21,266 nt of DNA from a virus, in IMG/VR virus record IMGVR_UViG_3300030451_001252, positions 2,957 through 24,222 of that record; one strand, 5' to 3'. Position 1 is the stretch's first letter. Each line of letters begins with the position of its first letter. The notes beneath the pieces were generated by a model that was not told where the DNA came from, ran no database searches, and saw only the letters and a list, made by a program, of their open reading frames with translations. Both the position numbers and the translations under genes were made by a program. Positions 1,023-21,266 of this stretch are shown one piece after another.

Positions 1023-4000
1023 ATGACAAGCACAACTAATAAGGTATCGCAGAACGTCCTTAATCAGTTGCCTGAATTTATCAGGGCTGATTATCCCGCT
1101 TTTGAGAAATTCCTACAATATTACTATAAAGGGCAAGAGAAGACAGGACAACCGCAGAATATAGTCAATGAATTCAGGGAATACCTGAATATAGACGAGT
1201 TTGACTTCAATTTGATTCAAAGTGAGACTTCTTTGCTTGAAGAGGTTACTGCGACTAGTGATACTATAACTGTTGAGAGTGTTGATAATTTTGCAGAACA
1301 GAATGGTTCGTTATTGATTAATGATGAGATTATATACTATGAAAGAGCAGACAAATCACCTGAAATTTCACTAACTGACGGTGTTTCTTACGCTGAGTTT
1401 AGAGAAAAGTGGATTGAACTACAAAACCCATATCTACAGTTCAATGGGGTTCAAAAAACATTTGCATTATTGTCTGAGGACAACCCTATTGCTCCTCCTT
1501 CAGATGACCATATTGTCGTAAGACTATTTGGTAAGTATTTGATTCCTGGTGTTGATTTTACTGTTGCTGGTACTGATATAGTCTTTACAGAGCCACCAAG
1601 ATCACCAAACCCTTCAGATTCTGTTGAAGAAACCGCAATTTTCTACTTAAAAGGATTTTTACAAGACTCTATTAGGGTTCTTGACTCAATTAATAGCACA
1701 TTTAACAGTTCAAACACTGAATTTAACTTAACTAGTGGTGATGTTAAGTATGTTCCTGTTTTAACAGTATATTTGCAGGTAATTATTGCTGATAGACTAC
1801 TTGTTCCATATATTGATTATTCTGTCGTAAATGATGGAACTAACGAGATTTTAAAACTTAAGAGTGCACCAGCATCTGACGATAGGGTTTATGTTGCTTC
1901 AATTGAAGCACCTATTACTAGTTTTGGTACAGGAGCAACTGCTGTTGCCCAAATTACTAATGGTCAACTTTCAGGTATTAAGGTAAAGGATGGCGGTAAG
2001 GATTATAGATTAACTAATCCCCCTGCTGTCACTGTTACTACAACTATTGGTGGTGGAGGTGCATCTGCTGAATCACTTGTAAATGGTATTAAGAGTCTTA
2101 CACTTCTTGATGGTGGTGCAGGTTATAGTGATCAACAACCTCCTATTGTAGATATTCAGGTTCCAACTGCTGCTGGTGGTGTTGCTGCTACTGCAAAAGC
2201 AACTGTTGTTAATGGAACTGTAACAGCAATTGAATTAGATAACTCTGGTAGCAACTATACATTCACCCCTAGAATCGTTTTTAAGGATCCTGGTGGCGGT
2301 TTACTAAGTCAACCTACTCTTGATGCTAATAATGGCGTAGATCCCGCTTCTATAGAGGTTTTAGCAGGTGGTGTAGGTTACACTGTTCCTCCTATTGTAT
2401 ATGTTGATGCTCCTACTGGTGCTGATCCTGTACAAGCAGAAATTACTGCTGAAATCACTGATGGGTCCTTAACTGGATTTAGTGTTGTTAATAGAGGTAG
2501 AGGTTATACATCTGCTCCTAGAATTGCTATTATTGACCCAGGTGCTGCTCAAATTCTTGATGTTACTGTTGACTCAATCGGAAGAGTTATTGATATTGAA
2601 CTACTTTCTGGTGGTTCTGGTTATGTTGACGTTCCATCTATCTACATTGTTGATAATAGAAAGGATAATTCAGGTGCATTTATAGGTGGTACTGGTGCAA
2701 CTGCTGTTGCTTCAATATTCAACGGTCAAATTACTGATATTAATATTACCAACTTTGGTACTGGTTATAGTATCACTGAACCTCCAACAATCATTATTCA
2801 GAGACCACCTTCTGCTACTGCCTCTGCTGAAGTAGGATTTGGTGAAGTTACTGGATTTAAAGTTGTAGAAGCAGGTTCTGCTTATAATAAAGCACAGTTT
2901 GTTGGTTGTGCTCGTGGTGTTTCTGGTCTTGTTGGATATGATAAGGACGGAAATGCTATATTTGAGAATCAAACATATCCAGCAGTTCATCCAGTTCTTA
3001 CAAGTACTGTTAAATGTTTAGATGGTGTCTTTATTGAGAAGATGCTTACTAAGTTCACAGAACAGTATCTTCCAGATATTCCTAAGATTGACCTTACTAA
3101 GATTAACATTAATACGGTCATTAAGAACATTAGGACGTTCTATTCTGCAAAAGGAACTCCGAAATCTATTGCATATCTGTTTAAAATCCTTTATGGTGAA
3201 GAAGTTAACGTATCTTACCCTAAAGAACAGATTACTAAACCATCTGCTGCTACTTGGCAAGTAGATACTATTTTACGTTGTGTTATTGTAGAAGGTGATC
3301 CTAATAACCTTGCTGATGGTTTAATCCAACAGTTCCCAGATAATGTAGATCCTTCTATTGGTACTGCATCTGCTCTAATTGAGAACTTTATCTCAATTAA
3401 AACCTCAGAATTAGAAATCTTTGAAATTGTACTATCAGAAGAGACAATTCAAGGGCAATTTACTATTCCATATAAGACAAAACTTGCTGAAGGTATCAGT
3501 TCAACTGATAGTGTTATTACAGTTGACTCTACTATTGGTTGGCCAGAAAGAAACGGTGAAGTTTTAATTGGAACAGAATTAATACGTTATAAAGAGAAAT
3601 CACTTAACCAGTTCATTGAGTGTACTCGTTCTGTGAATGGAATTGTAGAAGATTGGGATTCTGCTACTGAAGTAACCTCCAATTTCTACGTTTATGTAAA
3701 TTATAATCAAGATACACAAATTACTATCAAGGTAGTTGGTATTGTTAAGGCAGAAAACACTACTTTGACTGATGATGGTAGTTATTATCTACCTGGAGAC
3801 AAATTAACAGTTTCTAAGTTAGGTGCTACTGAAGATGCCAAATTACTTGATACTTGGAACTATAATGTTAAAAAACTAGTTTCTGTTACTGGTATTACCT
3901 TTGGTGGACTGAATAATCAGACTGCAACTGTTACTTGTGCTAACCCACATGGTCTTTTGGTTGGAGATCAGGTAACCATCTATGGTGCAAACCCAATTCT

Positions 4001-7000
4001 TTATAATGGAACGTATTTTGTACAGTCTAGAGAATCTGCAACTGTATTCAAGTATGAGTTAGCACAACCAGGGTCTACTATCCCTCAAGGTAATATTTTG
4101 ATATCTGTTGACCTTAACAGAGGTAAATCAGACGTACAATCTATCAATAATGTTATTAGCATCTATACTACTAACATTCAGAACACTTTCTTTAATAATG
4201 ATTACGTTTATGTTGCTGCATCTGGTATTCCTAACTATAAAATTGGACCTTTTGCTGGACAAGCACTTATTCCAGGAAACCAGCGTAAATTACTTCGTTT
4301 TCCAAGAAATGCTCAAACAATTTCAACAAAAGATGAAATTGTACCAGGTGCAATTGGTTCATGGGTAAATGGTGTTTCTGTATGGTCTTATAAGTCTGAC
4401 GATAAGAAAATATTTGGTAAAATCACTGGAATTAGTATTGACAATGCTGGATCTGAATATGATGCTGGTGCACCTCCAAATTTAACACTTTCTGGTGGTG
4501 GAGGTACTGGAGCAACTGCTGAAGTAGTTGTTAACGGTTCTATTACTGCAATTGACGTAAGTTCTTCTGGATCTGGTTATACTGAACCTCCTCTAGTTTC
4601 TATTGTTGGTGGAGGTGGATCTGGAGCATCTGCAACTGCTGTGGTAGTTAATAAGGCAGTTTCAAGAGTTTTGATCAATGATGGTGGTACTGGTTATACA
4701 TCTAAACCTGAAATCACTATTGTTGGTGGTGGTGGAGCAGGTGCAGTAGCTGAAGCATCAGTTAGAGGTCCGATTAAGAATGTTAATATTACTAATGCTG
4801 GTACTGAGTATACTTCATCTCCAAGTGTTACTTTAAGTTCTGGTACTGGTGCTCAGGCACAAGCAATTGTTAATAATGGAAGAATCATCTCTATTGCTGT
4901 CATTAACGCTGGTAATGGATATACTACACCTCCTACTGTAGAAATCTATGGTGATGGATTTGGTGCTGTTGCAAAAGCAGTTATTGACACTGATGGTGAA
5001 AATGCAGGTCGTGTTACTAGTATTCTCATTAATAACCGTGGTATTAACTATACACAAGGTACTACAGTAATTGTTCTAAGTTCTGTTGGTAAAGACGCTA
5101 AATTTACTGCTGATGTCCAAGATTGGACTTATAACCTTGCTCCTATCACATCTTTAGATGCTGCTCAAGGTTCTGTCTTCTCTGGATTGAATAATCAGTA
5201 TGGTGGTGAATATGCACACCTTACTAATCCTAAGAGACTTAGATATGTTCTTGGAGATAACCTTCTTGAAGATGATCAAGGAAATCTAACTGAAGCAACT
5301 TCAAATATTGAACATTCACCCATTTTAGGTTGGGCGTTTGATGGAAACCCAATTTACGGTCCTTATGGATATGGAGATCCTACTGATCAGTCATCTAATG
5401 TACGTCGTCTAGAACCCAGTTATAGTCTAGCATCTGAGTTGGTATTTAATGAAGCAACTAATCCAACTCCAGTTAGAACAGGTGGACCTTTACTTTCGGA
5501 TGATGCTGCTGGTACATATACTGAAGATTACACCTATAACTTTGGTGTTGGTGATTTAGACCGTTATAATGGTCGTTTTGGTAAGACACCCGATTTCCCA
5601 GAAGGTGTATATGCATACTTCATTACCATTGATGCTACTGAGCAAGGTAATCCAGTATTCCCATATATCATCGGTCCTAGTTTCAACTCAAGTGTAGATC
5701 AGTGGAACCTTTCACCAAATGCTACACAGGTTAATATTCCTACTGGGGTTATTCGTTATAGAGACCCATATGAGAATGTTGACATTGATGTTGAACGTAC
5801 ACCTAACGCAACTGCTGACCTATTAACTACTGAAGATGGATTAGAATTGACATTTGATCCAGTTTGGGAAGATGCTGATGGTGATAGTGTAATTGATACT
5901 GATTATCAATTGAATGGACAGAGACTTGCAATTCGTAATGATGATAGAGTCTTTAGAATCACTTTTGATCAGAATCAGATCCCAATGGCAGAGGATGATA
6001 TCTATGAAGTACCTCAATATGTAACTACAAATGCTGGAAATGCTCCTAGCACAGATCCTATTAATATTCAGGTTCTATACAATGGTATTACATCTAATAC
6101 TATTCTTGTAAGAGCAGTTTCTACACAAAATTTTGCTAGGGCGTTTGATGGAACATACGATCAGTATATTGGATTAGATTTTGCTAAAGCAGGTGCTGGA
6201 ACTGCTAATATTACTGATATTGAGTATGTTGGATTCCGTGCAACTTATGAACCTGCTGCTGGTCAAGCAGAAGAATTAACTGATGTTGGAAGTCTATTAG
6301 AAGAGAATAAATTAGAATTATTTGACTATTTCCCTAAAGTTAGATTTGACTCTAAGGTTGATATTGAAGTTGAAACTACTACTAAATTTGAAGATGCATC
6401 TGTTTCTGGATTTGTTGTTGAGAACCCAGGTAATAATTATCAGGTTAATGACCGTTTAATATTTGATGACACTGATACTGAAGGTTATGGTATATCTGCT
6501 GTTGTTAGAACTATTGAAGGTAAAACAGTTAATTCTTACAATTATGAATTAATAGATGATGTACCTCATGGTGTTGTAGAATGTTCTGAACCACATGATC
6601 TATTAAATGGAGATAGAGTACTTGTTAACTATACTCCAGATATTTCAAGTGAAATTGAGACATATAAGGTTAAAGTTGTTGATGGTATTGAACAAATCAA
6701 TGTAACTCAAATAGGTACTGGATATAATGATGATGTTCCTATTTCAGTTGAAATTGATGGTGTAGGACAACATGCTGCTATTACTCCAATAATTGATACT
6801 GGTAATGGTACTGTATCCGAATTTAATATTATTAGATCTGGTAATGGGTTTACTAGTGCTCCAAAACTTATAATTTCACACCCTCAGTCATTTAAGAAGG
6901 CAGAATACTTTATTAATAATACTAATAATCTTAAAGATACTGAAATCAATGCAATATTTACAGATGATAGTACTAAAGATTATTATGTTGCTGGTAACAC

Positions 7001-13000: not shown

Positions 13001-16000
13001 ATTCCAAGTAGATGCTGAAAGATTTACTATATCAAGTATTACAAACAATACTGTTATTGCTAATCGTGGTGTTGATGGAACTGCTATTGTTGGTCATGTT
13101 ACTGGTAGTAACATATTTGGAACAACTGTTGAAGTTGGTGATACACTCTTATTAAGTAAAACTGCTGGTACTTATCAGTCAACTCCTGGTCTATTTGATA
13201 TCGTTATTGGTGATATACTAACTGGTCAAAAGAGTGGTGTTGTTGCTGAAGTTATTGGTATTGCTGCATATAGAGATCCAATAACTAATGAGCAAAATAA
13301 CAGAGTTGTTATTTCAGAAGGTTCTTCTTTCCAAGGTTTAGTATTCAACAGAATTACAAACGTTAACTTCCAGAACGTTATTCTTGACAATATATCTCAA
13401 ACTCAGTTGCAACTAACTGATATTGCTGATACTGCTGTTGAGATGAACAGTAAGTTCCCGAATTCTGAGGTTGTAAGTAACCTAATTCTTGAGTGGAATA
13501 ATTCATCTGGTACTTTCCAAGTTGATGAAGATATAAGAAATCATATTATCAATTACTCTAACATCAATGGTGATATAATTGATGGTGAAACAGTTCGTTT
13601 ATATAAACTTGCTTATGATGATTTGGCTAGTGGTGCTGATGGTCTAATTCTAACTGGTGATATTATCCGTAGTGAGAATGCAACTGGTCAAGTAATTGGT
13701 ACTAACTATGCCCGTGGATTTGCATATTTGGGTAAAGTTGCCCGTGCAACAACTTCTTTACATGTACCTGTTGCTCAAAATGGTGCTATTATTGCTACTT
13801 TGCAGAAGAAATTCGGTAGTGGTTCACTATTCTTAAATGGTACTGCATATGCTTCTGTACCAACTTCAACAGATTTTGGATTTGGAACTAATGATTGGAC
13901 TATTGAATGCTACATTTATGCTTCTAGTGTAACTGGTACACAACATATACTTGACTTTAGAACTACTACTAATGAAGTATCTCCTACATTACGTTCTGAT
14001 GGTACTGGATTAGAATTCCATGTAAATGGATCTGATGTAATTACTGGTGGTACTATCACTCAGAATACATGGCATCATATTGCAGTTTCTAAATCTGGTA
14101 GTTCTACTAAGATGTTCTTGGATGGAACTCAAGTAGGTTCTACTTATACTGATAATAATGACTATGGAACTACAAAACCAATTAAGATTGGTGCTGATCA
14201 TAATGGATCAAATGCTTTAAGTGGATATGTTGATGAAGTTAGAGTTTCTACTAATGCAAGATACACTGCTACATTCACTCCATCAATATACATGTTCCAA
14301 GGAGATGTTAATACAGTTCTCTTAGTTCACTTTGATGGTGCTAACTTATCTACTACTTTCCGAGATTGGTCTGGTGTACCAACATGGAATGAGGGTGACC
14401 AGTTCTTAACTGGAGATGTATCATTTAGATTCTTTGATGCTTCTGAAGAAATTCTTAATAATATTGATCTAATTGCTCAGGAAGCAATATTCCAGACAGA
14501 TTCTACATTCCCTAGATTACATATTCCTCATCCTGATGATGAAGTTGCTGTTACTTATGGTAAGGATTTCTATAATGTAACTATTGCTAACTTAGATCTA
14601 ATTGCTGCTGAAGCATATGATCGTATTAATCCAACACCTCCTCCTAATACTGGACCTACAGATTGTCGTGATGATGTAAAAGATGTAATTAGAAACATTA
14701 TCTATAACGTAACCTATGGTTACAATAACAAGACTTATGATGCTGCAAGTCTTTATGTTAATAATTCTAATGCACTAGATCATCTTAAGGGTAAGGAAGA
14801 TTTCTCAATTCGTGTATTTAACGAAGCAAGAGATATTACTAAGAAAATTATTAATAACTCTCCAATTCCTCTTTACAACAGTTTCAAACCAACTGCTGCA
14901 ACTTATGATTCAAATTCTGGTCTTGTGACTATGAATATTGGTAAGAGACATAACTTTGCTGTTGATCCTGGAAGATCAAATGGTAGTGCTGTTATTAAAC
15001 CAAATTCTCTTACATTTACATGTAGTGCAGATGGTTATAAGTCTGAGCACACATATCCTCGTCAAGAAGATGAGAATTATGCTCGTGAGTTAGAAATTCT
15101 TGATGTTGGATTTACAACTCACACTATTGACCATTCAACATATGATCCTGAAACTGGAACTCTTAAGATTTGGGTTCCTGGACATCAATTTGAAGATGGT
15201 GAAAAAGTTCAGATTCAAACTAATTCATTATCATTCAAATGTGAGCAAGATAATAATGTAACTGATCATAAGTATCCTAGAGAATCAGATCCTTGGAATG
15301 GTCGTTGGTTAAAGATTTCTAATGCAAATCCAGATAGTTTTGAAGTACATGTAGGAAGAAGTAATTCATATCTATTCACACCTACTGCTGGTACATTTGA
15401 TCCTAATACTGGAGATATGAGTCTTACTATTGGTACTCATAATCTTCATAAAGGTCAACCAATTAAACTTGCTACCAAGTCATTAGTTTGGACTTGTGCA
15501 TTAGATGGTGATGCTACTGAGCACAATTATCCTCGTGCAACTATTGATACTCATCAAGCAGCATCTGGTTCCACATACGTTGCTACCACTGGTGTTTTAG
15601 ATGTTACTACTACTGCTGCTCATGGCATTAAAGTAGGAGATTGGATCAAGTTTGATGAAGGTGCAATTACATTCAGTTGTACAATGGATGGTGGTTCTGC
15701 TAATAAAGCATATCCACGTAAGAGTGATCCAACATACGGTAAGTGGTTACAAGTTGAATCTATTCCTAGCACAACAAGGTTTACTGTTAATGTAGGTACA
15801 TCACCTCAGAAGACATATACTCCAACTGATGCTGATTATAATCCTACAACAGGTATCATGGAACTTACCATTGGTACTCATGGAATGGTTGCAGGTGATG
15901 CAATTAAACTTGCTCAGGATTCATTAACATTTACTTGTGATTATAATAACGATAATCATACAACAACTAAGACTTATCCTAGAAGTAATGGTAACGATAG

Positions 16001-19000
16001 TGCCACATATAATACTTCAATTGAAATTACTTCTGTTGGTGATGCTATTCTAACACCTACATTTGCTCTTTATGATCCAACTACAGGATATGTAACATTA
16101 ACTGTTAAAAATCATCCTATTAAGAATGGTGATAAGATCAAGATCGCTGATAATGCATTACAATTTACTTGTGAGAAAGATAATTTCCAAACTAAGCATA
16201 CATATCCAAGAGCAACTGATGAAGCAAGTGGTAAGTGGTTAAGTGCATTTAATGTCACTAATCATACATTTGATGTTCAAATTCTACCTGTTGTTCCTTC
16301 TAGTAACGTAACAGAGCATAAGTTTACACAAGCAACTGCTAATTCTGTTAGTGTTAAGGATGCAACTATTAGTATGCAGGTTCTTCCATCTGCTCCTTCA
16401 ACAGATCAAACAGAACATAGATTTGTTTCTGCATCTGCTGGTGCTGTAATTACTGGTGGTAACTATACTCATACATTCGTTTCTGGTGTTGCTAACGGTA
16501 TCAAACAGAAGAGAGATAAGGCATACGATCAACCTGTTACAATTAAGTACGAAGGAACACCATTTACTGCTGCTCAAGCTTCTACTTCTTATGACCCTGC
16601 TACAGGTAATTTAACTATAGGTTCTAGTGGACATGATTTAGTAGTTGGTGATTATATTAAACTTGCTGATGAATCATTAACCTTCCAGTGTACTCTTGAT
16701 AGTAACGGTAGTAATCATCTATATCCACGTCCATCTGACCCTGCTAGTGATACATGGTTGCGTGTTGATAGTGTAGATACAAATGATTTCGTTGTTAATG
16801 TTGGAAAATCTCCTGATTTATCAACTCATACTTGTACTGCTACAGTAACAAATGGTTGTGTCAAGAGAGATGGAACTATTACTATTAATGTTGGTACATC
16901 TTCTAACACATCTAACCATACATTTGTCAGAGCGAAGACAGGTGCTATTCAAACAGGAACTGGAGAACCAGTTGAAGGATATAGTGTAAGTGGTGCAACT
17001 TATACACCTGCATCTGGACTTCTAGAACTTAATGTTGGTAAGAATAATTTCTCCATTGGTGAGATGGTTAAAATTGCAAACAATTCTCTAACATTCGTTT
17101 GCAATCATGCTGGTGACAATTATATCACAACCAAATCTTATCCAAGAACAACTGATCCAATTTATGACACATATGTTGAGATTACTGATCTTGGAACTAG
17201 TTCTAAGACAGCAACTGGTGCAACTTATATTCCTACAACAGGTCTATTAACACTTACTGTTCCTAATCATGGATTTGAATCTGGAGATGAGATTAGAATT
17301 GTTGATCAATCATTAGTATTCACATGTCTTGCTGGTGGTGGTACTCATGCATATCCAAGATCTACTGACCCTGCTAGTGGTAAATGGTTGACTGTTACTG
17401 TAGTTGATTCTGATACTTTCAAGGTTAATCCTGGTACATCTTCTAACACTACAACTCACGCATTTGACAGTGCTGTTGCTAATGGTATTCTGTATAAGAG
17501 TGGTATCATTAAGATCAATGCATTACAAGGTACTTCTCCAACTAATACAAGTACACATCAATTCGTTAATGCTAATAATCAGTACACTCCAACTGACGCA
17601 GAATATGAACCAACTACAGGTTGGATGAAACTAACTCTTGCTAATCATGGATTTGCAAATGGAGAGATGGTTAAAGTTGCTGATGCTGGTTTAGTATTCA
17701 CTTGTGCCCTTGATAATGATAGAACTCTTCATTCTTATCCAAGAGAGACAGATCCTAAGTCTGGTAAGTGGATGAGGATTGCTAATGTAACTCAAAATAC
17801 TTTTGATATTAATGTTGGTATATCATCTAATGAAACACTCCATACATTTGACAGTGCTGTATTCAATTGTTTAACAAGAGCAGTTGTATATAACGGAGGT
17901 CCTTATGTACATGAATTTGTAAGTGCTGTTCCTCATGGATTACTAGCTCAGAATGGTGATATTACAGTTAACGTTGGTGAATCTCCAAATATCGGACATG
18001 ATGTAAGTGCTGCAACTTATACAGCAACTACAGGTGATATGACATTGAATATTGGTGCTCACAACTTGAACGTTGGTAACACCATTAAGATCAATGATGA
18101 TTCATTGACTTTCCAATGTAATATGGATAGTCAAACAACTAATAAGACTTATCCTCGTGCAACTGATCCAGTTCATGATACACCTATTCCAATCACTGCT
18201 ATTGGTGAGACACAACATTCAGTAACTGCTGGTACTCACTTATTTGTTTCTGCACTTAGTGGTGGTATTAGAGATGCTGATAATACAGGAAATACTTACA
18301 CTGTAAGTGGTGCAGTCTATACTGCTGAAACTGGCAATTTGGTAGTTACTGTTGCTGCTGATGGTACAGATTCATTACAAGCAGCTGACTCTATTCAAAT
18401 GAAGGTCAATTCACTAACAATGACCTGTGATTTAGATGCTCATGGATCTAATCATCAATATCCTCGTCTTACTGACCCAATCTTTACTACTTTAGGAACT
18501 GGAACTTCAGATTCTACATGGAGTAGAATTATTCCAATTACTAAATCAGGAAATGATCTCACATTTAATGTTGGTATTGGTACTGCTGGTACTCAATACG
18601 ATCCTACTACTGGACTCCTCAAACTCTACATTAACGGTCATGGATTTACTGGAACTTCTAACCTAACTGCTGCTTCAGGATCTACATATAATCCTACAAC
18701 TGGTGAGTTAGCTGTTACTACTTCAAGTTCACATGGTCTTGCTAATGGAGATAAGATTAGATTTGATGAAGGTGCTATTACCTTCCAGTGTTCAATGGAT
18801 AGTAATGCTACTAACCATGCATATCCACGTAAGACTGATCCTACATTTGGTAAGTGGTTAGATGTTACTGTTGATAGTTCTGCTGTATTTAAAGTCAATG
18901 TTGGTAAGTCACCTATTAAGGCATACCATGTTGCTCATGCTGAGTATGATCATACTAGTGGTGAATTAGAACTTATTATTGGTAATCATAATCTTCATGC

Positions 19001-21266
19001 TGGAAGCAGTATTAAGATAGAAAAAGAATCTCTAACATTTACATGTTCAAATGATGGTTATGCAACAGAGCATAAGTATCCAAGAACTTCAGACCCTGCA
19101 TATGATACACCATTGAAGATTATTGGTGTAACTCCAACTTCAATTACTGTTGATGTAGATGTTGCAGCTGGTGGTAACCAATTCCCTCATAGATTTGTAC
19201 CTGCTCCTGGTTTAACACCTAGTGCTGCAACTTATGATGCAACTACTGGTGTTCTTCAAATGACTATTACTGGTCATGGAATTGTATCAACTGGTAAGAT
19301 TAAGATCGCTGAAGAAGCACTTAAATTTACTTGTGATATGGATCATCATGAGACTGTTCATAATTATCCTCGTAAGACAGATCCAATTTATGAAGAGTGG
19401 TTAGATGTTACTGTTGTGGATGCTAATACTATTAGTGTTAACGTTGGTACAACACCTGCTGTTAACCATGATGTAACTAATGCAGTCTACAATCCAAATG
19501 ACGGAACTATGGTTCTTACAATTGGAGATCATAGTCTTGAGAAGGGACAAGGTATTAAGATTGGTCAAGATAAGTTAACCTTTAAGTGTAAGCAAGATGC
19601 TACTGAACAAGAACCAGATGGTGTAACACTACACACTTATCCAAGGAATGTTATTGATACTGAAACAGTTAATACTGCATCATATGACCCTGCTACAGGA
19701 CATTTACAGTTGACTGTTCCTCTTCATGGATTCAGTTATGGAGATAAGATACAACTTGTAGATGATTCATTAACATTCAGATGTGCTAAGGATGGTAATA
19801 CTACTGATCATACCTATCCTAGATCTTCTGACCCAATTAGCGGTAAGTGGTTACCAATCTTTGATGTAACTTCAACTACCTTTAAAATCAACGTTCTAGA
19901 TTCTGCACCTTCTACAAACCCAGATGCACACATCTTCCAGTCTGCTACTAATAACGGTGTTAGAATTCAGAGAGACCCATATTATGATAGAACAATTTAC
20001 ATTGATGATGTAACTCGTACTACTATTACAGTTAACGTTGGTATCTCATCTAATGTTTCTGATCATACATGGGCTGGTGGTACATCATCCAATGCTATTA
20101 CAAGTGGTGGTAACTATACTCATACATTCTATGGTGCAGTAGATAATAGTATTAAAACTTCTGCTGTTACAACTGGTGGAAATTATACACATGTATTCCA
20201 ATCAGGTGCATCTAATGGAATTAAGAAAGCTGGTGATCTAATCAAACTTGATACTGATTCCTTGAAGTTTGTTTGTAAGAAAGATGATAATAGTACATAT
20301 CATACTTACCCAAGAATTTCAGATCCAGCTAATAAGCAATGGATTCCAATTGAAAATGTAGCAACAAATACATTTGATGTTCAAATTGGTAAATCACCTG
20401 ATACTTCAGTTCATACATTCATTTCTGCTCCTAGCAATACTGTTAAGAAACAGACTGGTGAAATTACAGTTAATGTTGGTGCATCACCTCAAGTTCTATA
20501 TGATGTTAATGGTGCAACTTATAACTTCACCACTGGTGATCTAGTACTTAATATTGGTGCTCACGATCTACTTGCAGGTCAGAATGTTAAACTTGCTAAT
20601 GAGTCCTTAACATTCCAGTGTACTTACGGTGGTTCTCCTCAACAGGTTGCTTATCCTCGTGCTTCAGGTTCTGGTTATGTTGGTGGTACACCAGCTGGTT
20701 CTGACTATGCATATAATAGATCTTTACCAATCGCTAGTGTTGGTGAAGTTAGTAAGACTGTAGAAGCTGCTACATATACTCCTAATACTGGAATATTAAG
20801 AATTAGTATTCTAAATCATGGTCTATCAGATAGTGATAAAGTAAGAATTTTAGATGGAACATTAACATTCACATGTTCTAAGGATAATCACATGACTACT
20901 CATGCTTATCCTAGAGGAAATGATCCTATTAGTAACAAGTGGATGAATATTAGTAATGTAACTGATAACACATTTGATATTGATGTAGGGACAACTACTA
21001 TTGGTGATTTTGAACATATATTTGTAAGTGCATCTGCTAGTGGACTTAAGGTACAAAATGGTCAGATTACACTTGATGTAAAACCAATTACTTCTGTTGG
21101 TGCACCTACTGCTCACACATTTATTGGTGCAACTGCTGGTGCTCTTATTACTGGTGGTAACTACACTCATACATTCCAGAGTGCATCTGCTGGTGCTGTT
21201 AGAACTGGTACTGGTTATATTAATAAATTTGTATCTGCTGAGGAGAATTCAGTTACTTCTCACGGA
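1023..21266 (+). CDS. Giant multidomain baseplate/tail-fibre-like structural protein (3' end outside window)
   Basis: One frame is open from the ATG at 1023 to the final base: 6,748 codons, no stop, ending on a complete codon. The start is fixed by an in-frame TAA at 1017. No signal peptide or hydrophobic membrane segment is visible. The protein is mostly beta-rich, full of Gly, Thr, Ala, Val, Asn and Asp, with few Trp and Met. Modules in order (residues): docking-like region 2-300; GY repeats 302-657; conserved helical block 663-757; GY repeats 1132-1360; YHYH-like 1393-1557; beta-propeller-like 1977-2363; LamG-like 2390-2610; conserved tail block 3560-3613; fibre-like beta domain 3695-3775; LamG-like 4260-4440; helical linker 4470-4621; 20 Cys/YPR repeats from 4623 to the window end. 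Its place right after gp6 matches that of large structural genes in T4-like cyanophages. A baseplate-anchored host-recognition fibre is the best guess; the exact role is unknown. Confidence 0.9.
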   Translation, partial: MTSTTNKVSQNVLNQLPEFIRADYPAFEKFLQYYYKGQEKTGQPQNIVNEFREYLNIDEFDFNLIQSETSLLEEVTATSDTITVESVDNFAEQNGSLLINDEIIYYERADKSPEISLTDGVSYAEFREKWIELQNPYLQFNGVQKTFALLSEDNPIAPPSDDHIVVRLFGKYLIPGVDFTVAGTDIVFTEPPRSPNPSDSVEETAIFYLKGFLQDSIRVLDSINSTFNSSNTEFNLTSGDVKYVPVLTVYLQVIIADRLLVPYIDYSVVNDGTNEILKLKSAPASDDRVYVASIEAPITSFGTGATAVAQITNGQLSGIKVKDGGKDYRLTNPPAVTVTTTIGGGGASAESLVNGIKSLTLLDGGAGYSDQQPPIVDIQVPTAAGGVAATAKATVVNGTVTAIELDNSGSNYTFTPRIVFKDPGGGLLSQPTLDANNGVDPASIEVLAGGVGYTVPPIVYVDAPTGADPVQAEITAEITDGSLTGFSVVNRGRGYTSAPRIAIIDPGAAQILDVTVDSIGRVIDIELLSGGSGYVDVPSIYIVDNRKDNSGAFIGGTGATAVASIFNGQITDINITNFGTGYSITEPPTIIIQRPPSATASAEVGFGEVTGFKVVEAGSAYNKAQFVGCARGVSGLVGYDKDGNAIFENQTYPAVHPVLTSTVKCLDGVFIEKMLTKFTEQYLPDIPKIDLTKININTVIKNIRTFYSAKGTPKSIAYLFKILYGEEVNVSYPKEQITKPSAATWQVDTILRCVIVEGDPNNLADGLIQQFPDNVDPSIGTASALIENFISIKTSELEIFEIVLSEETIQGQFTIPYKTKLAEGISSTDSVITVDSTIGWPERNGEVLIGTELIRYKEKSLNQFIECTRSVNGIVEDWDSATEVTSNFYVYVNYNQDTQITIKVVGIVKAENTTLTDDGSYYLPGDKLTVSKLGATEDAKLLDTWNYNVKKLVSVTGITFGGLNNQTATVTCANPHGLLVGDQVTIYGANPILYNGTYFVQSRESATVFKYELAQPGSTIPQGNILISVDLNRGKSDVQSINNVISIYTTNIQNTFFNNDYVYVAASGIPNYKIGPFAGQALIPGNQRKLLRFPRNAQTISTKDEIVPGAIGSWVNGVSVWSYKSDDKKIFGKITGISIDNAGSEYDAGAPPNLTLSGGGGTGATAEVVVNGSITAIDVSSSGSGYTEPPLVSIVGGGGSGASATAVVVNKAVSRVLINDGGTGYTSKPEITIVGGGGAGAVAEASVRGPIKNVNITNAGTEYTSSPSVTLSSGTGAQAQAIVNNGRIISIAVINAGNGYTTPPTVEIYGDGFGAVAKAVIDTDGENAGRVTSILINNRGINYTQGTTVIVLSSVGKDAKFTADVQDWTYNLAPITSLDAAQGSVFSGLNNQYGGEYAHLTNPKRLRYVLGDNLLEDDQGNLTEATSNIEHSPILGWAFDGNPIYGPYGYGDPTDQSSNVRRLEPSYSLASELVFNEATNPTPVRTGGPLLSDDAAGTYTEDYTYNFGVGDLDRYNGRFGKTPDFPEGVYAYFITIDATEQGNPVFPYIIGPSFNSSVDQWNLSPNATQVNIPTGVIRYRDPYENVDIDVERTPNATADLLTTEDGLELTFDPVWEDADGDSVIDTDYQLNGQRLAIRNDDRVFRITFDQNQIPMAEDDIYEVPQYVTTNAGNAPSTDPINIQVLYNGITSNTILVRAVSTQNFARAFDGTYDQYIGLDFAKAGAGTANITDIEYVGFRATYEPAAGQAEELTDVGSLLEENKLELFDYFPKVRFDSKVDIEVETTTKFEDASVSGFVVENPGNNYQVNDRLIFDDTDTEGYGISAVVRTIEGKTVNSYNYELIDDVPHGVVECSEPHDLLNGDRVLVNYTPDISSEIETYKVKVVDGIEQINVTQIGTGYNDDVPISVEIDGVGQHAAITPIIDTGNGTVSEFNIIRSGNGFTSAPKLIISHPQSFKKAEYFINNTNNLKDTEINAIFTDDSTKDYYVAGNTLDQFNNRIGFIAKYSQAGDKIWAKTARSNQPSGQDTYCDFTCLYVDVNSTTQDVYVSGITKPNSLNINYNPDIVLMKFNQSSGGANIGIQYQKELAGISGSTREDIVTCITKVGDNKFCIGGYTNTNTSNPYDAFLVVFNENLIIQQKRKIATTDSSEKVTDIKYNADTGKFYALLEVAPSTTSSAKSFAIAECEAQQFLLSVSALVNFNTSGFSVWDPKFDIDEFGDFYVSGTAYSGNNSNSVFVGKISGIGTTNTIVWAKRWVPTGSVSWRNLKVIGGNVDVFGEYNLGYNYEVNESTAEFDAYRKQSEVTKVKYDGSLISTNVIKFTRNIVGFEINDMLSDASGDPIVVGRAYRNEVIGLFNFEQTAETEPVDTTGNITYRNLIGDYYKGSNVTSGAPNGKGSTGGLMIDAWDGTAWSDTHLELEPGNTTGVYGYRDSFDPNGNWTVEGFFSVDESNDQQDTRLATVGGTHHVLFGIGEGNSPGVTVMLNRSTKAIDWYASATTQRTAGAISTVNNIIVNNIGYVHIALTKNGNVYKLYANGVEISTGTISLTYPTDAKIYLGNSPNWTGAATGFAVNTQGSYNVDGFRITDRVRQVIVPSTTADFNTYLQKYHYAEDCGLIIKTDKNVDSTRQGTFIGTNTNWHFNTAAYTYGNVVDQATNPLTLTLASEGLQVLDYNDANSTLTLDSETISSTTDVWSTRTATIPAIGGRKVKANTTTYGKFYIRTVDTTVADNILRFNFNQAADYNVGSILSQVNSSGQTLGTARIVDKDAAGIYVAQYGSATDWQNWEGTGEIQTDGGEVNEIPSQTFANQDFDPTDGQGVFKFDIPAGVSARFKTYNINDYTVRIDATAPAGSPYIVGSVITPTSDQVSWNADRTQLIIGASPDQLTAVTQITLITNLEKVVILDDAANTDKIFYKTAEAHRFAVNDNVYISGNDNEEFNGSFNVINVLNTREYIVGLRGTATTLPNASAGTIDIYAKHPVLKMYYQHKYKFLLDDTSLQGYYMSFSKDNLFKLEYSFNSITRVGTPGFQQGNDPAPYVQISINNDVTNISYYFDPSRTGATSPVDAGTYMDVVTTPYNGNFVINRLAGATITTGATIFKFPLTSEPEGAAQASRVTYTTFSEKAVGSIGDIRLVNGGGFYKKLPVISGIESNRKIERVAITEPGTEYAVGEYTGVPITGDGEGGKVNITVADGTDDEGNTIPGQISEVVVVDPGKNYTTALIDIESITGILGAGLAGSGAELTVVIPPKGTGASIFVKADKIGKIKKLKNNNFGFDYTHDYTLRPEITFPVNVQLTSTNILDSITVTDPGSGYATPPAVIISGGGGTGATAEASIKNGRIDNIEVKDPGAGYSSEPAVTLKSSFNYVVNLDLALLQFSFPHGITNGAAVTVLAQDDGSGDTPELPISSFGRLNANTTYYAISGAANSLEDDQLRLAITKDNANIGDYITYTNAGTGRQLLLTDSFGGAATANVVTGRFLAGELVYQGESQDIATAVGYVSENDGWQIGPRILKIVDYEGDFVAGQIVTGTISKASGTIDNLAIAKGVLEVGAITTTPGRFVDDIGKPSEIIQKIQDSYFYQDFSYSVKAPVSISDWRDILITNVHPAGFKVFGELGLVEKSTIENKETAFELTKSVNLADSAIVPNLQNFTLVEPVYQEFDNTEVRFRQKNLTSSEQILTSTVQKINDISDQFDGEKISFPLTVQNLDQDGSVVTQPVIAAANQLLISLNGIVQSPGEAFTVQGSNIVFTNPPQPPAAVQYSNVTLEFKSLIRLNLSSVSGIFPSEGNTIRGVQSDVEAVVVATGLTSIDCYYKTAADANTGFQVDDANTPLVNEGEIINFSGTGFTANLDSITTLTVNQIFEFKEDVKNFRGDFAKVEKINLEGNNGQVLTTIPGGLSASGSTFDVADAYQLSDLNITTAGTNYSTQENVATTGGSGTGLTFDIVANGQGAITNVKTNAKGENYAIGDVVTITTGDGQATVTIIADTTGVFQVDAERFTISSITNNTVIANRGVDGTAIVGHVTGSNIFGTTVEVGDTLLLSKTAGTYQSTPGLFDIVIGDILTGQKSGVVAEVIGIAAYRDPITNEQNNRVVISEGSSFQGLVFNRITNVNFQNVILDNISQTQLQLTDIADTAVEMNSKFPNSEVVSNLILEWNNSSGTFQVDEDIRNHIINYSNINGDIIDGETVRLYKLAYDDLASGADGLILTGDIIRSENATGQVIGTNYARGFAYLGKVARATTSLHVPVAQNGAIIATLQKKFGSGSLFLNGTAYASVPTSTDFGFGTNDWTIECYIYASSVTGTQHILDFRTTTNEVSPTLRSDGTGLEFHVNGSDVITGGTITQNTWHHIAVSKSGSSTKMFLDGTQVGSTYTDNNDYGTTKPIKIGADHNGSNALSGYVDEVRVSTNARYTATFTPSIYMFQGDVNTVLLVHFDGANLSTTFRDWSGVPTWNEGDQFLTGDVSFRFFDASEEILNNIDLIAQEAIFQTDSTFPRLHIPHPDDEVAVTYGKDFYNVTIANLDLIAAEAYDRINPTPPPNTGPTDCRDDVKDVIRNIIYNVTYGYNNKTYDAASLYVNNSNALDHLKGKEDFSIRVFNEARDITKKIINNSPIPLYNSFKPTAATYDSNSGLVTMNIGKRHNFAVDPGRSNGSAVIKPNSLTFTCSADGYKSEHTYPRQEDENYARELEILDVGFTTHTIDHSTYDPETGTLKIWVPGHQFEDGEKVQIQTNSLSFKCEQDNNVTDHKYPRESDPWNGRWLKISNANPDSFEVHVGRSNSYLFTPTAGTFDPNTGDMSLTIGTHNLHKGQPIKLATKSLVWTCALDGDATEHNYPRATIDTHQAASGSTYVATTGVLDVTTTAAHGIKVGDWIKFDEGAITFSCTMDGGSANKAYPRKSDPTYGKWLQVESIPSTTRFTVNVGTSPQKTYTPTDADYNPTTGIMELTIGTHGMVAGDAIKLAQDSLTFTCDYNNDNHTTTKTYPRSNGNDSATYNTSIEITSVGDAILTPTFALYDPTTGYVTLTVKNHPIKNGDKIKIADNALQFTCEKDNFQTKHTYPRATDEASGKWLSAFNVTNHTFDVQILPVVPSSNVTEHKFTQATANSVSVKDATISMQVLPSAPSTDQTEHRFVSASAGAVITGGNYTHTFVSGVANGIKQKRDKAYDQPVTIKYEGTPFTAAQASTSYDPATGNLTIGSSGHDLVVGDYIKLADESLTFQCTLDSNGSNHLYPRPSDPASDTWLRVDSVDTNDFVVNVGKSPDLSTHTCTATVTNGCVKRDGTITINVGTSSNTSNHTFVRAKTGAIQTGTGEPVEGYSVSGATYTPASGLLELNVGKNNFSIGEMVKIANNSLTFVCNHAGDNYITTKSYPRTTDPIYDTYVEITDLGTSSKTATGATYIPTTGLLTLTVPNHGFESGDEIRIVDQSLVFTCLAGGGTHAYPRSTDPASGKWLTVTVVDSDTFKVNPGTSSNTTTHAFDSAVANGILYKSGIIKINALQGTSPTNTSTHQFVNANNQYTPTDAEYEPTTGWMKLTLANHGFANGEMVKVADAGLVFTCALDNDRTLHSYPRETDPKSGKWMRIANVTQNTFDINVGISSNETLHTFDSAVFNCLTRAVVYNGGPYVHEFVSAVPHGLLAQNGDITVNVGESPNIGHDVSAATYTATTGDMTLNIGAHNLNVGNTIKINDDSLTFQCNMDSQTTNKTYPRATDPVHDTPIPITAIGETQHSVTAGTHLFVSALSGGIRDADNTGNTYTVSGAVYTAETGNLVVTVAADGTDSLQAADSIQMKVNSLTMTCDLDAHGSNHQYPRLTDPIFTTLGTGTSDSTWSRIIPITKSGNDLTFNVGIGTAGTQYDPTTGLLKLYINGHGFTGTSNLTAASGSTYNPTTGELAVTTSSSHGLANGDKIRFDEGAITFQCSMDSNATNHAYPRKTDPTFGKWLDVTVDSSAVFKVNVGKSPIKAYHVAHAEYDHTSGELELIIGNHNLHAGSSIKIEKESLTFTCSNDGYATEHKYPRTSDPAYDTPLKIIGVTPTSITVDVDVAAGGNQFPHRFVPAPGLTPSAATYDATTGVLQMTITGHGIVSTGKIKIAEEALKFTCDMDHHETVHNYPRKTDPIYEEWLDVTVVDANTISVNVGTTPAVNHDVTNAVYNPNDGTMVLTIGDHSLEKGQGIKIGQDKLTFKCKQDATEQEPDGVTLHTYPRNVIDTETVNTASYDPATGHLQLTVPLHGFSYGDKIQLVDDSLTFRCAKDGNTTDHTYPRSSDPISGKWLPIFDVTSTTFKINVLDSAPSTNPDAHIFQSATNNGVRIQRDPYYDRTIYIDDVTRTTITVNVGISSNVSDHTWAGGTSSNAITSGGNYTHTFYGAVDNSIKTSAVTTGGNYTHVFQSGASNGIKKAGDLIKLDTDSLKFVCKKDDNSTYHTYPRISDPANKQWIPIENVATNTFDVQIGKSPDTSVHTFISAPSNTVKKQTGEITVNVGASPQVLYDVNGATYNFTTGDLVLNIGAHDLLAGQNVKLANESLTFQCTYGGSPQQVAYPRASGSGYVGGTPAGSDYAYNRSLPIASVGEVSKTVEAATYTPNTGILRISILNHGLSDSDKVRILDGTLTFTCSKDNHMTTHAYPRGNDPISNKWMNISNVTDNTFDIDVGTTTIGDFEHIFVSASASGLKVQNGQITLDVKPITSVGAPTAHTFIGATAGALITGGNYTHTFQSASAGAVRTGTGYINKFVSAEENSVTSHG
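1026..1920 (+). other. N-terminal region of the giant protein, probable baseplate-docking part
   Basis: Residues 2-300. It opens with LPEFIRADYPAFEKFL and a short helical stretch (QNIVNEFREYL), a start I recognise from large T4-like cyanophage structural proteins. Next comes a beta motif TITVESVDNF...NGSLLINDEIIYYE (residues 82-107). Two further beta segments share the pattern of a hydrophobic strand, Pro, Asp-aromatic, Val, then a Pro/Ala-rich turn: VVRLFGKYLIPGVDFTV (165-181) and VIIADRLLVPYIDYSV (253-268). Docking to the baseplate is inferred from the N-terminal position and adjacency to gp6, not shown by the sequence. Confidence 0.55.
1926..2990 (+). repeat. GY beta-repeat cluster 1 (8 degenerate copies, ~40 residues each)
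   Basis: Residues 302-657. Each unit has the form hydrophobic strand - G-x-G/N-Y - x(2-4) - P-P - strand - G/A-rich turn - AEA-like - strand - NG - xIT-. The Tyr codons of the eight copies lie at 2004, 2124, 2256, 2379, 2505, 2622, 2766 and 2883, giving spacings of 117-144 nt. Example cores are DGGAGYSDQQPP and NRGRGYTSAP. The copies are divergent at both DNA and protein level, so this is an old array. Function is probably structural, as a beta-solenoid-like or stacked beta spacer. Confidence 0.75.
3009..3290 (+). other. Conserved helical block of cyanophage-type tail proteins
   Basis: Residues 663-757. After CLDGVFIEKMLTKF and a segment with YLPDIPKIDL comes TFYSAKGTPKSIAYLFKILY (residues 705-724) and then VSYPKEQITKPS. 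This combination of a helical segment, K-G-T-x-K-S and a strand ending in YPKE is one I recognise from large T4-like cyanophage structural proteins. It is one of the few helical, charge-rich parts in a mostly beta protein and may be a core interface with the baseplate. The recognition is from memory; no named Pfam family is claimed. Confidence 0.5.
3480..3720 (+). other. Second copy of the N-terminal NG...EIIYY-type beta motif
   Basis: Residues 829-859 read SVITVDSTIGWPERNGEV and then LIGTELIRYKEK. This matches, position for position, the motif at residues 82-107 (ITVESVDNF, E-x-NG, LLINDEIIYYE). It is followed by IECTRSVNG, a short strand-turn typical of phage capsid and tail beta domains. 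The two copies are about 2.2 kb apart and suggest an internal duplication or two instances of one small fold. Confidence 0.55.
3897..4110 (+). other. HGL-x-x-GD beta module
   Basis: Residues 959-1030. The stretch TVTCANPHGLLVGDQVTI is followed by YNGTYFV and a strand ending FKYEL. The PHGL-x2-GD-x-V-x-I loop followed by N-G-T/S-Y-x-V is a common small beta fold in phage structural proteins. Related forms recur here near 6570-6670 (EPHDLLNGDRVLV) and 9778-9915 (AHRFAVNDNVYISG, then FNGSFNVI). The C-terminal repeats use a similar HGF-x2-GD loop. Confidence 0.5.
4410..5100 (+). repeat. GY beta-repeat cluster 2 (6 copies)
   Basis: Residues about 1132-1360. This is the best-preserved set of GY repeats. 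Tyr codons lie at 4458, 4578, 4695, 4809, 4920 and 5049, with spacings of 111-129 nt (37-43 residues). Typical cores are SSSGSGYTEPPLVSIVGGGG and INAGNGYTTPPTVEI, each followed by GAxAxAxV and NGxI. The stretch GGGGSGASATAVV marks the glycine-rich turn. The set leads directly into the YHYH-like domain. Confidence 0.78.
5200..5690 (+). other. YHYH-like domain
   Basis: Residues 1393-1557. Key signatures are GWAFDGNPIYGPYGY (1436-1450), DLDRYNGRFGKTPDFPEG (1511-1528), VYAYFITI (1529-1536) and PVFPYIIG (1544-1551). These match the conserved core of the YHYH family (G-x-A-x-DG-x-PIYGPYG, NGRFG-x-TP-x-FP-x-G-x-YAYF). The literal tetrapeptide YHYH is absent; GEYAHLTNP (from about 5205) may correspond to it. 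The family is found in bacterial secreted proteins and, as I recall, in large cyanophage structural proteins. Its biochemical activity is not established, so none is assigned. Confidence 0.82.
5691..6400 (+). other. Unassigned beta-rich stretch of the giant protein
   Basis: Residues about 1557-1793. No repeat or domain is recognised. The segment begins with NLSPNATQVNIPTGVIRYRD and contains acidic stretches such as WEDADGDSVIDTD and FDYFPKVRFD. Alternating hydrophobic and polar residues suggest beta structure. It links the YHYH-like domain to GY cluster 3. Confidence 0.4.
6400..6900 (+). repeat. GY beta-repeat cluster 3 (3 degenerate copies)
   Basis: Residues about 1793-1960. Copies are centred on VENPGNNYQVNDRLIF (Tyr codon 6438), VTQIGTGYNDDVPISVEI (6723) and IIRSGNGFTSAPKLII (aromatic codon 6849, Phe instead of Tyr). 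An HDLLNGD-type module (about 6570-6670) sits between the first and second copies, so the cluster is interrupted. Confidence 0.6.
6950..8110 (+). other. Beta-propeller-like region (SBBP-type blades)
   Basis: Residues 1977-2363. Blade-like units repeat the pattern [KD]-x-Y/F-x-[VI]-[SAG]-G-x-T ... D-x-[FV]-[LV]-x-K-[FIY] ... W-A-K or Q-K. Visible copies are DYYVAGNT...GFIAKYS...IWAKTA; DVYVSGIT...DIVLMKFN; KFCIGGYT...DAFLVVFN; KFYALLEV...; GDFYVSGTAYS...VFVGKIS...IVWAKRW; and NVDVFGEY, then DPIVVGRA. This resembles the SBBP (Pfam beta-propeller repeat) family found in bacterial surface proteins. Six or so blades are plausible. Its role would be binding or scaffolding; no active site is seen. 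Confidence 0.6.
8190..8850 (+). other. LamG/concanavalin-like jelly-roll domain 1
   Basis: Residues 2390-2610. Typical LamG-like (concanavalin A-like) signatures appear in order: NWTVEGFFSV (2440-2449), LFGIGEGNSPGVTVML, YVHIALTKNGNVYKLYANGV (2520-2539), then KIYLGNSPNW and NVDGFRITDRVRQ (2580-2592). The W-T-x-E strand, the x-H-I-A-x-T-K-x-G-x-V-x-L-Y-x-N-G strand pair and the final D-x-[FV]-R-[IV] strand are the classical order. Such domains often bind glycans, which would fit a host-recognition fibre. Binding is inferred, not shown. Confidence 0.8.
8851..10420 (+). other. Unassigned beta-rich stretch between LamG domain 1 and GY cluster 4
   Basis: Residues about 2610-3133. No full domain is recognised. 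One small element stands out: EAHRFAVNDNVYISG followed by FNGSFNVI (about 9780-9865), a diverged HGL-x2-GD module. The segments ATDWQNWEGTGEIQ and HPVLKMYYQHKYKFLLDD are relatively aromatic. The second, and DPSRTGATSPVDAGTYMDV further on, resemble parts of large cyanophage structural proteins, but I cannot name a family. Confidence 0.4.
10420..11120 (+). repeat. GY beta-repeat cluster 4 (about 6 degenerate copies)
   Basis: Residues about 3133-3367. Tyr codons are at 10446 (GGGFY), 10527 (PGTEY), 10677 (PGKNY), 10857 (FGFDY, weak), 10965 (PGSGY) and 11082 (PGAGY). The last two are the cleanest: TDPGSGYATPPAVII followed by GGGGTGATAEASIKNG, which closely resembles cluster 2. The lysine-rich stretch DKIGKIKKLKNN (near 10806) interrupts the set. 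Confidence 0.65.
11300..11860 (+). other. Glycine-rich beta modules followed by a conserved cyanophage tail-protein block
   Basis: Residues about 3427-3613. Two small beta units share a GE/GQ-x-V-x-x-G pattern (FLAGELVYQGESQ and FVAGQIVTGTISKASG). They are followed by SEIIQKIQDSYFYQDFSYSV (about residues 3570-3589), then VSISDWRDIL and HPAGFKVFGELG. The block Q-D-S-x-[FY]-YQDFSY-x-V-K ... WRD ... HPAGFK-x-FG is one I recall from large T4-like cyanophage structural proteins, where it lies towards the C-terminus. Here about 3,100 further residues follow. Recognition is from memory. Confidence 0.5.
12100..12345 (+). other. Tail-fibre-like beta domain
   Basis: Residues about 3695-3775. The pattern FDGEKISFPLTV ... 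NQLLISLNGIVQSPGEAFTV ... SNIVFTNPPQPPAAVQYSNV is the common phage fibre motif of a hydrophobic strand, N-G, Q-x-PG, a strand, then F-x-x-PP. It is the third and best example in this protein, after residues 163-200 and 253-290. Confidence 0.6.
12770..12960 (+). repeat. GY beta-repeat pair 5 (2 weak copies)
   Basis: Residues about 3917-3980. The copies are ITTAGTNYSTQENVAT (Tyr codon 12801) and TNAKGENYAIGDVVTI (12921), 120 nt apart, with GTGLTFDIVANGQGAITNVK between them. The PP after Tyr is lost in both, so these are diverged members of the same repeat family. Confidence 0.5.
12961..13799 (+). other. Unassigned beta stretch before LamG domain 2
   Basis: Residues about 3980-4260. Short units with the theme I-x-x-GD-x-L-T-G-x-x-S-G-x-V/A recur (FDIVIGDILTGQKSGVVAEV; LILTGDIIRSENATGQVIG). 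They resemble the glycine-rich units near 11460-11640. No named domain is recognised. Confidence 0.4.
13800..14340 (+). other. LamG/concanavalin-like jelly-roll domain 2
   Basis: Residues 4260-4440. The order of signatures is complete: FGSGSLFLNGTAYASVPTS, then NDWTIECYIYASS, then QHILDF, then NTWHHIAVSKSG with TKMFLDGTQVGS, then KPIKIGADHNGS, and finally YVDEVRVSTNARYTATFTP, ending in VLLVHFDGA. This is a textbook LamG-type (concanavalin-like) fold, better conserved than domain 1. It likely binds carbohydrate on the host surface (inference). It lies just before the helical linker and the C-terminal repeat array. Confidence 0.88.
14430..14885 (+). other. Helical linker segment
   Basis: Residues 4470-4621. 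Unlike its surroundings, this stretch is rich in helix formers and charged residues: ASEEILNNIDLIAQEAIF, NLDLIAAEAYDRI, then CRDDVKDVIRNIIYNVTYGY, NKTYDAASLYV and RVFNEARDITKKIINNSP. Similar helical segments (N-x-x-YDAA-x-LY, then an EARD-like helix) occur in cyanophage structural proteins as I recall them. It separates the LamG domain from the Cys/YPR repeats and may be an oligomerisation or hinge element (inference). Confidence 0.55.
15558..15746 (+). repeat. Repeat copy 4, close pair with copy 13
   Basis: This unit (STYVATTG ... FDEGAITFSCTMD ... AYPRKSDPTYGKWL) and copy 13 align without any gap over about 190 nt at a constant offset of 3,111 nt. Shared runs include tttgatgaaggtgc and gcatatccacgtaaga. 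The FDEGAI variant is found only in these two copies; the others read ADxSL or similar. Confidence 0.65.
16455..16478 (+). repeat. GGNYTHTF 24-nt direct repeat, copy A
   Basis: This 24-nt run starts ggtggtaactatactcata and encodes GGNYTHTF. It is identical to 20106-20129 and differs by one base from 21153-21176; a more diverged fourth copy (GGNYTHVF) is at 20175-20198. It marks a short alternative linker (TGGNYTHTF-x-SG-x-x-NGI) that adds length between Cys/YPR units. Confidence 0.75.
18669..18857 (+). repeat. Repeat copy 13, close pair with copy 4
   Basis: Partner of the unit at 15558-15746. It reads STYNPTTG ... FDEGAITFQCSMD ... AYPRKTDPTFGKWL. The gap-free alignment at 3,111 nt (1,037 codons) distance suggests a segmental duplication or gene conversion within the array. 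Confidence 0.65.
20106..20129 (+). repeat. GGNYTHTF 24-nt direct repeat, copy B
   Basis: Identical over 24 nt to copy A, 3,651 nt upstream. It is followed within 70 nt by the diverged GGNYTHVF copy (20175-20198), so the linker is itself duplicated in tandem here. Confidence 0.75.
21153..21176 (+). repeat. GGNYTHTF 24-nt direct repeat, copy C
   Basis: One synonymous difference (tat to tac) from copies A and B. It lies in ALITGGNYTHTFQSASAGAV, close to the window end, and is followed by another linker-like unit (TGYINKFVSA), so the array clearly continues to the right. Confidence 0.72.

Follow-up and report, generated by a model that had tools for sequence, protein, structure and literature searches.

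A probable gp7-type baseplate wedge protein encoded by a single frame of about 9,197 codons in a T4-like marine cyanophage

Genomic context and extent of the open frame

The window, that is the whole stretch of DNA analysed here, comprises 21,266 nucleotides and corresponds to positions 2,957 to 24,222 of the 24,222-base virus record IMGVR_UViG_3300030451_001252 (G000:C1:2957-24222). It opens with the C-terminal part of the baseplate wedge subunit gp6 (3-1004, plus strand), recognised by phrog_219 (E=1.7e-83) and, below their cutoffs, by the Pfam models Gp6_C-III and Gp6_C-I. The remainder is taken up by one frame on the same strand, which starts with an ATG at position 1023 and holds 6,748 codons up to the window end at 21266 with no stop. 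From base composition (36% GC) about 480 chance stops would be expected in this frame; the other five frames contain 313, 1087, 330, 345 and 798 in the same interval. Since the window end is also the contig end, the gene leaves the contig and not just the window. Just before window position 1 the contig has a short stretch of N (L006). Judged by eye, this stretch is preceded by one ORF about the size of gp25 and another reading like the start of gp6, so that gp6 is seemingly split in two in the contig.

The end of the gene is supplied by a second contig. A scan of IMG/VR with a repeat segment retrieved G006 (IMGVR_UViG_3300020394_001021, 15,692 bases). Its overlap with the window, at positions 19097-21266, is 2,170 bases long and shows 4 mismatches; beyond it the open frame goes on until a stop codon. 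The summed gene has 9,197 codons, for a product of about 987 kDa, a length obtained by overlapping two metagenome contigs, possibly from different samples, and not from one molecule. Intact, collinear genes are present in contigs from two other datasets, G001 (150.6 kb; 9,242 codons, the gene free of N) and G007 (90.5 kb; 9,243 codons), which are 94.5% identical to each other. The window is collinear with G001 throughout, at 78.8% identity over 6,808 alignment positions, and its gaps of at least eight residues take up 49 residues of the window in total. An earlier sequence-only reading of this DNA had described one open frame of at least 6,748 codons and proposed a search for its stop beyond the contig end; the frame is real, and its size had been put too modestly. 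That reading had also given the gene a large share of a T4-like genome, and at 27.6 kb it would make up about 15% of a genome near the 182.8 kb of S-SSM4.

Purifying selection acts along all 6,748 codons of the window, in agreement with the strong selection for one polypeptide claimed earlier. Using a simple Nei-Gojobori estimate from our own script, dN/dS between the window and G001 was 0.165-0.457 in every one of 14 blocks, none longer than 500 codons; against a further locus (L023) it was 0.10 over 1,553 codons. Constraint against G001 is tightest in the first 1,500 codons (0.165-0.173) and looser in the blocks holding the repeat array described below (0.32-0.46) and in codons 3501-4000 (0.44).

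Downstream of the giant gene (L121:9530-15095) lie genes for a YHYH protein of 284 residues, a gp9-like protein of 398 residues and a phrog_708 protein of 1,168 residues. The YHYH protein matches only positions 1-282 of a 587-position model; in S-SSM4 the gene found there encodes 590 residues.

Relatives and gene size

All four window pieces scanned, and the C-terminal piece of the overlapping contig, match phrog_701, and homology along the chain places the predicted protein among the giant cyanomyovirus structural proteins (PHROG 701 / 2885 / T4-GC969). A search with its first 247 residues hit 414 of 50,697 phage records, whose names begin with Synechococcus (324), Cyanophage (61), Prochlorococcus (24) or Marine (5). 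In an alignment of the core, 75 of 80 loci spanned it in one frame, of which 29 were left after dropping those more than 93% identical to one already retained.

We measured the gene at this position in 19 cyanophage isolates, 18 picked from the matching records and S-SM1 added by accession. It exceeds 15 kb in 11 of them, with equal lengths within the pairs P-SSM4 and P-SSM3 (21,939 nt) and S-SSM4 and S-SSM6b (20,799 nt), followed by ACG-2014d (20,454 nt), S-WAM1 (20,214 nt), S-SZBM1 (19,860 nt), Syn19 (19,452 nt), S-CAM22 (18,822 nt), S-RIM14 (18,597 nt) and S-SM1 (18,543 nt). The other eight are MED4-213 (13,377 nt), P-HM2 (13,365 nt), S-SCSM1 (12,363 nt), ACG-2014e (10,488 nt), S-PM2 (9,147 nt), S-SSM7 (9,024 nt), DSL-LC02 (7,545 nt) and MC09 (5,829 nt); T4 gene 7 itself has 3,099 nt. 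Phage structural genes beyond 15 kb, which the earlier reading had called rare, are thus not so in this group. Among 22 IMG/VR contigs of at least 39.7 kb, chosen for their length, the matched segment lies in an open frame of more than 5,000 codons in 21, the frames around the core ranging from 4,079 to 9,244 codons when counted stop to stop; some of these may be cut by contig ends, and several with equal frame lengths may be near copies. The three genes of the window's lineage (window, G001 and G007) are the longest measured here. Very long frames at the core are also seen in the less related contigs G022 and G024 (8,864 and 8,569 codons), so that great length has perhaps evolved, or persisted, in at least two lineages.

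Three isolates illustrate the relationship. CYXG_00059 of S-SSM4, annotated as a virion structural protein (20,799 nt, 6,932 aa), occupies the same position after gp6, is 70.5% identical over window aa 2-4630, and can be aligned with G001 at the C-terminus (61% over 1,515 positions). In P-SSM4 the gene at the same position, PSSM4_080 (7,312 aa), is named gp7; its product is about 1,900 residues shorter, 49.5% identical over window aa 6-223 and related to the window's array region at 31%. SSM1_102 of S-SM1 (6,180 aa), again at the same position, is about 3,000 residues shorter than the window gene's product and 59% identical over window aa 6-1625, and homologous pieces cover much of window aa 6-4703. 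Giant forms are therefore already known, annotated up to 21.9 kb and in some cases named gp7, and the gene is not unprecedented; it is a very long member of a known but little-described family, remarkable for its size and not for its kind. The titles and abstract openings of the literature searched named no phage protein of more than 9,000 residues, which is no proof of absence.

A gp7-type core

The giant gene sits in the slot of T4 gene 7, because the C-terminus of gp6 is encoded directly upstream. In T4 gp7 follows gp6, and in S-SM1 the order is gp25, gp6 and then the giant gene; the window gene likewise lies directly after gp6 in the baseplate cluster. Further downstream the order is unlike that of T4, gp9 preceding gp8 in S-SM1, which counts against gp7.

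Two stretches of the protein match phrog_26741. The N-terminal one (1035-1193, plus strand, aa 5-57; model positions 2-54, E=6.2e-8) is a helical segment, the apparent counterpart of the helical domain of T4 gp7; helices are predicted at aa 8-54 with block pLDDT of 42-60. The other, a gp7 core with a KGT motif at aa 701-731 (3102-3530, plus strand, aa 694-836), gives E=1.8e-27. About 640 residues separate the two parts, whereas in T4 gp7 they lie together: residues 664-759 match the same model at positions 24-116 (E 1.7e-5 with the whole protein, 8.2e-7 with a 120-residue piece), and aa 643-689 are Pfam Gp7_helical. Between the motif and T4 gp7 734-759, BLASTP gave E=2.6e-4 for the one pair and matched nothing else between the two proteins; hhalign of the core with T4 gp7 gave E=5.6e-5 (probability 66). 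The best PDB profile match of the core is a T4-like gp7 (E=0.016), and its pLDDT is below 50 at aa 710-816. Furthermore, T4 gp7 (around 729-759) finds the same motif of 25-30 residues in all seven proteins compared (window, G001, S-SSM4, ACG-2014d, P-HM2, S-SSM7 and S-SM1), with single-pair E-values from 1.4e-6 to 1e-3. A further match between S-SSM7 and T4 gp7, separate from this motif, is weak (E 0.001).

Three models, phrog_26741, phrog_17744 and phrog_2885, are common to T4 gp7 and the window protein. The two thus share the helical segment, the KGT motif and a gene position after gp6, although the full-length window protein is about nine times as long as T4 gp7 (1,032 aa). The Pfam gp7 domains V and VI, present in T4 gp7, were found neither in the four window pieces nor in the gp7 of S-SSM7; we therefore write gp7-type and not full-length T4 gp7, without taking these domains as defining. 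A short but consistent sequence signature, weak in direct comparison, ties the N-terminal part to the T4 gp7 core.

Foldseek of the N-terminal model against PDB gave no match at E<=0.001, no gp7 was identified among the matches listed in the structural comparison of this model, and the PDB searches found no solved structure of the giant protein. The missing gp7 is no evidence against the assignment, because the N-terminal part is predicted with low confidence. PHIKZ130, a phiKZ baseplate protein, was the one match of phmmer with the first 1,159 residues against PDB (E 0.33, at 185-278) and recurs at Z 5.2 in the structural comparison; it is not taken as evidence.

Modules of the long chain

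Between the two core pieces lies an inserted segment. At aa 216-297 (1668-1913, plus strand) a small beta domain is predicted, whose model resembles the N-terminal attachment domain of T7-type tail fibres; the likeness is suggestive only, as the best VIA-align Z of 7.6 (rmsd 2.8 over 73 residues) is below the safe level of 8. The first 15 matches in that comparison all end at model residues 293-298 and are all parts of phages or injection systems. A Pfam scan of window positions 1455-1931 gave a single sub-cutoff match, to an unrelated family. Glycine-rich G-x-G-Y repeats follow at aa ~303-620 (1929-2882, plus strand; motifs at 365, 531 and 579 in the translation) and are predicted to be all-beta, with block pLDDT mostly 84-92. 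P-HM2 does without most of the insert, window residue 626 aligning to its residue 138.

Beyond the core, a second glycine-rich cluster is found at aa ~1130-1350 (4410-5072, plus strand; motifs at 1183-1310, best phrog_708 stretch 1132-1231) and a YHYH domain at aa 1390-1539 (5190-5639, plus strand; PF14240, E=1.2e-28). Two concanavalin/laminin-G-like domains (PF13385) lie at aa 2429-2568 (8307-8726, plus strand) and aa 4273-4413 (13839-14261, plus strand; E=3.3e-22); the former was seen when a 267-aa piece was scanned (E=7.4e-7) and missed in the surrounding 1,666-aa piece. Pfam found nothing at E 0.1 in window positions 16017-21266 or, apart from the match in the shorter piece, in 6021-11018, and nothing at E 5 in 7080-8501.

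Further along lies an array of 20 YPR units, each about 65-100 residues long and diverged in sequence (14880-21032, plus strand, aa 4620-6670). Units were counted at E<1e-12, weaker hits being left out; the model was made from those of the window, so the count is biased towards it. We found 20 units in the window, 26 in G001, 5 in P-HM2, 4 in S-SSM4, 3 in ACG-2014d and 2 in S-SM1, and none even at E 0.01 in S-SSM7 or T4 gp7. The number thus ranges from 0 to 26 among the eight proteins counted, and the window array exceeds those of all four unit-bearing isolates. Each of the 20 window units has its own partner in G001 (57-88% identity), the best match within the window being 38-61%; being closer across than within, the array probably predates the split of the two. 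S-SSM4 residues 4838 and 4888 correspond to G001 residues 4891 and 6957, which leaves S-SSM4 about 2,000 residues short at this place, and by this alignment much of the extra length of the window's lineage is the YPR array.

A stretch of three units is predicted to form small all-beta domains (mean pLDDT 77.5, pTM 0.45), for which Foldseek against PDB returned nothing at E<=0.001. With Z 7.1 and an rmsd of 1.9 over 65 residues the units resemble a small beta-barrel in ubiquitin-activating E1, and at Z 5.3-5.4 the barrels of phage endosialidases; with Z below 8 this is possibly just a common arrangement of the predicted fold and implies no functional link. An iota-carbonic anhydrase match of the unit profile (E 0.0015) had no stretch that passed alone and is not taken as evidence. 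Relatives of the array region occur in 364 phage records, including cyanophage genes annotated as tail fibres, and the unit therefore looks like a shared cyanophage module. Of the cysteines and histidines, only the cysteine of an F-x-C motif (60 of 60 units in six proteins) and one histidine (90%) are conserved in more than 75% of the units; two aspartates also exceed this level (87% and 92%). In the window, 19 of the 20 units lack a second cysteine. A metal site would be speculation, as only one cysteine and one histidine are conserved among such residues in the aligned units.

Detection of a homologue in virions, and alternative explanations

For purified S-SM1 virions, PMC3037559 describes 41 proteins detected by multiple peptides and names T4-GC969 among them; this label is carried by SSM1_102, which occupies the position in S-SM1. 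The description of the window gene as a phage structural gene was well founded, as were the giant selected frame and the genome share; the supposed rarity was not, and the sequence-only reading had named neither gp7 nor the known relatives. In S-PM2, a passage of PMC9910659 describes mutations in S-PM2d081 (3,048 residues) during coexistence with Synechococcus. S-PM2p081 has the same number and length (3,048 aa) and is 35.6% identical to the window protein over window aa 5-122. Together with the domains and the shared units, these mutations lead us to infer a role in adsorption.

Could the long frame be an assembly artefact, with repeats collapsed or expanded or several phages joined in a chimera? 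It comes from one metagenome contig with an N run upstream, and it contains 20 related repeat units. However, the units are diverged (median identity 35%), each of the 20 has its nearest counterpart at the same rank in G001, which means that short reads can place them, and Tandem Repeats Finder reported no array in the window. With collinear, intact genes assembled from two other datasets, mis-assembly is extremely unlikely in our view and we reject it; the stop codon, frameshift or chimera that had been named as contrary findings did not emerge from comparison with these assemblies. It is very improbable, too, that the gene encodes a giant precursor cut into several separate virion proteins. 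The mix of domains and the length would suit a precursor, and since genes at this position range from 5.8 kb to 27.7 kb, much of the chain is dispensable or separable. A pair of neighbouring gp7-annotated genes in S-SSM7 (L009:17980-36303), of about 9.0 kb each with a 1,023-nt virion structural gene between them, would also fit. No processed product was seen, however, and the relevant passages of PMC3037559 are silent on fragments.

A more serious objection concerns the name. According to a passage of PMC7029224, T4 gp7 is absent in cyanomyophages and apparently substituted by VrlC, and the giant protein might then be a virion protein of the baseplate region or of a fibre network, with no orthology to gp7. 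A VrlC-annotated gene does lie four genes downstream in S-SM1, and direct similarity to gp7 is confined to about 30 residues. Against this stand the three PHROG models shared by T4 gp7 and the giant protein, one of which covers the helical segment before the motif, and the synteny directly after gp6. We therefore consider this alternative unlikely and judge gp7 to be probably the better name for the giant protein. It may be added that in a passage of PMC10966104 gp7 designates a neck protein.

Proposed role and significance

The window gene probably belongs to a Kyanoviridae-like (T4-like) marine cyanophage and encodes its gp7-type baseplate wedge protein, in one frame of about 9,197 codons. 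T4 gp7 assembles with two gp6 chains into the (gp6)2-gp7 heterotrimer of the wedge. By analogy, the core of the giant protein would nucleate each of the six wedges together with two gp6 chains. From this core a covalent arm would extend, made up of the inserted segment and a very long C-terminal series of beta-rich modules (fibre-attachment-like, YHYH, lectin-like and the YPR array), and the arm may form the outer baseplate, dock fibres and touch the cell surface. A more specific version, which we regard as distinctly unlikely, is a wedge initiator with its own adhesion arm on one chain, in which the YPR array would provide a length that varies between lineages, the cysteines would let adjacent units, or the several copies within a baseplate, cross-link or bind metal, and length and stiffness would set the reach to the host. 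If each baseplate holds six copies, as that of T4 does, the 20 to 26 units on every chain would add up to 120 to 156.

T4-like cyanophages are abundant in the sea, yet this protein is named differently across records, as gp7, structural protein or hypothetical protein, and the assignment to gp7 bears on the statement in PMC7029224, in the passage referred to above, that gp7 is absent in cyanomyophages. Should the giant protein be gp7, these phages may have an outer baseplate that consists largely of covalent extensions of the wedge initiator.
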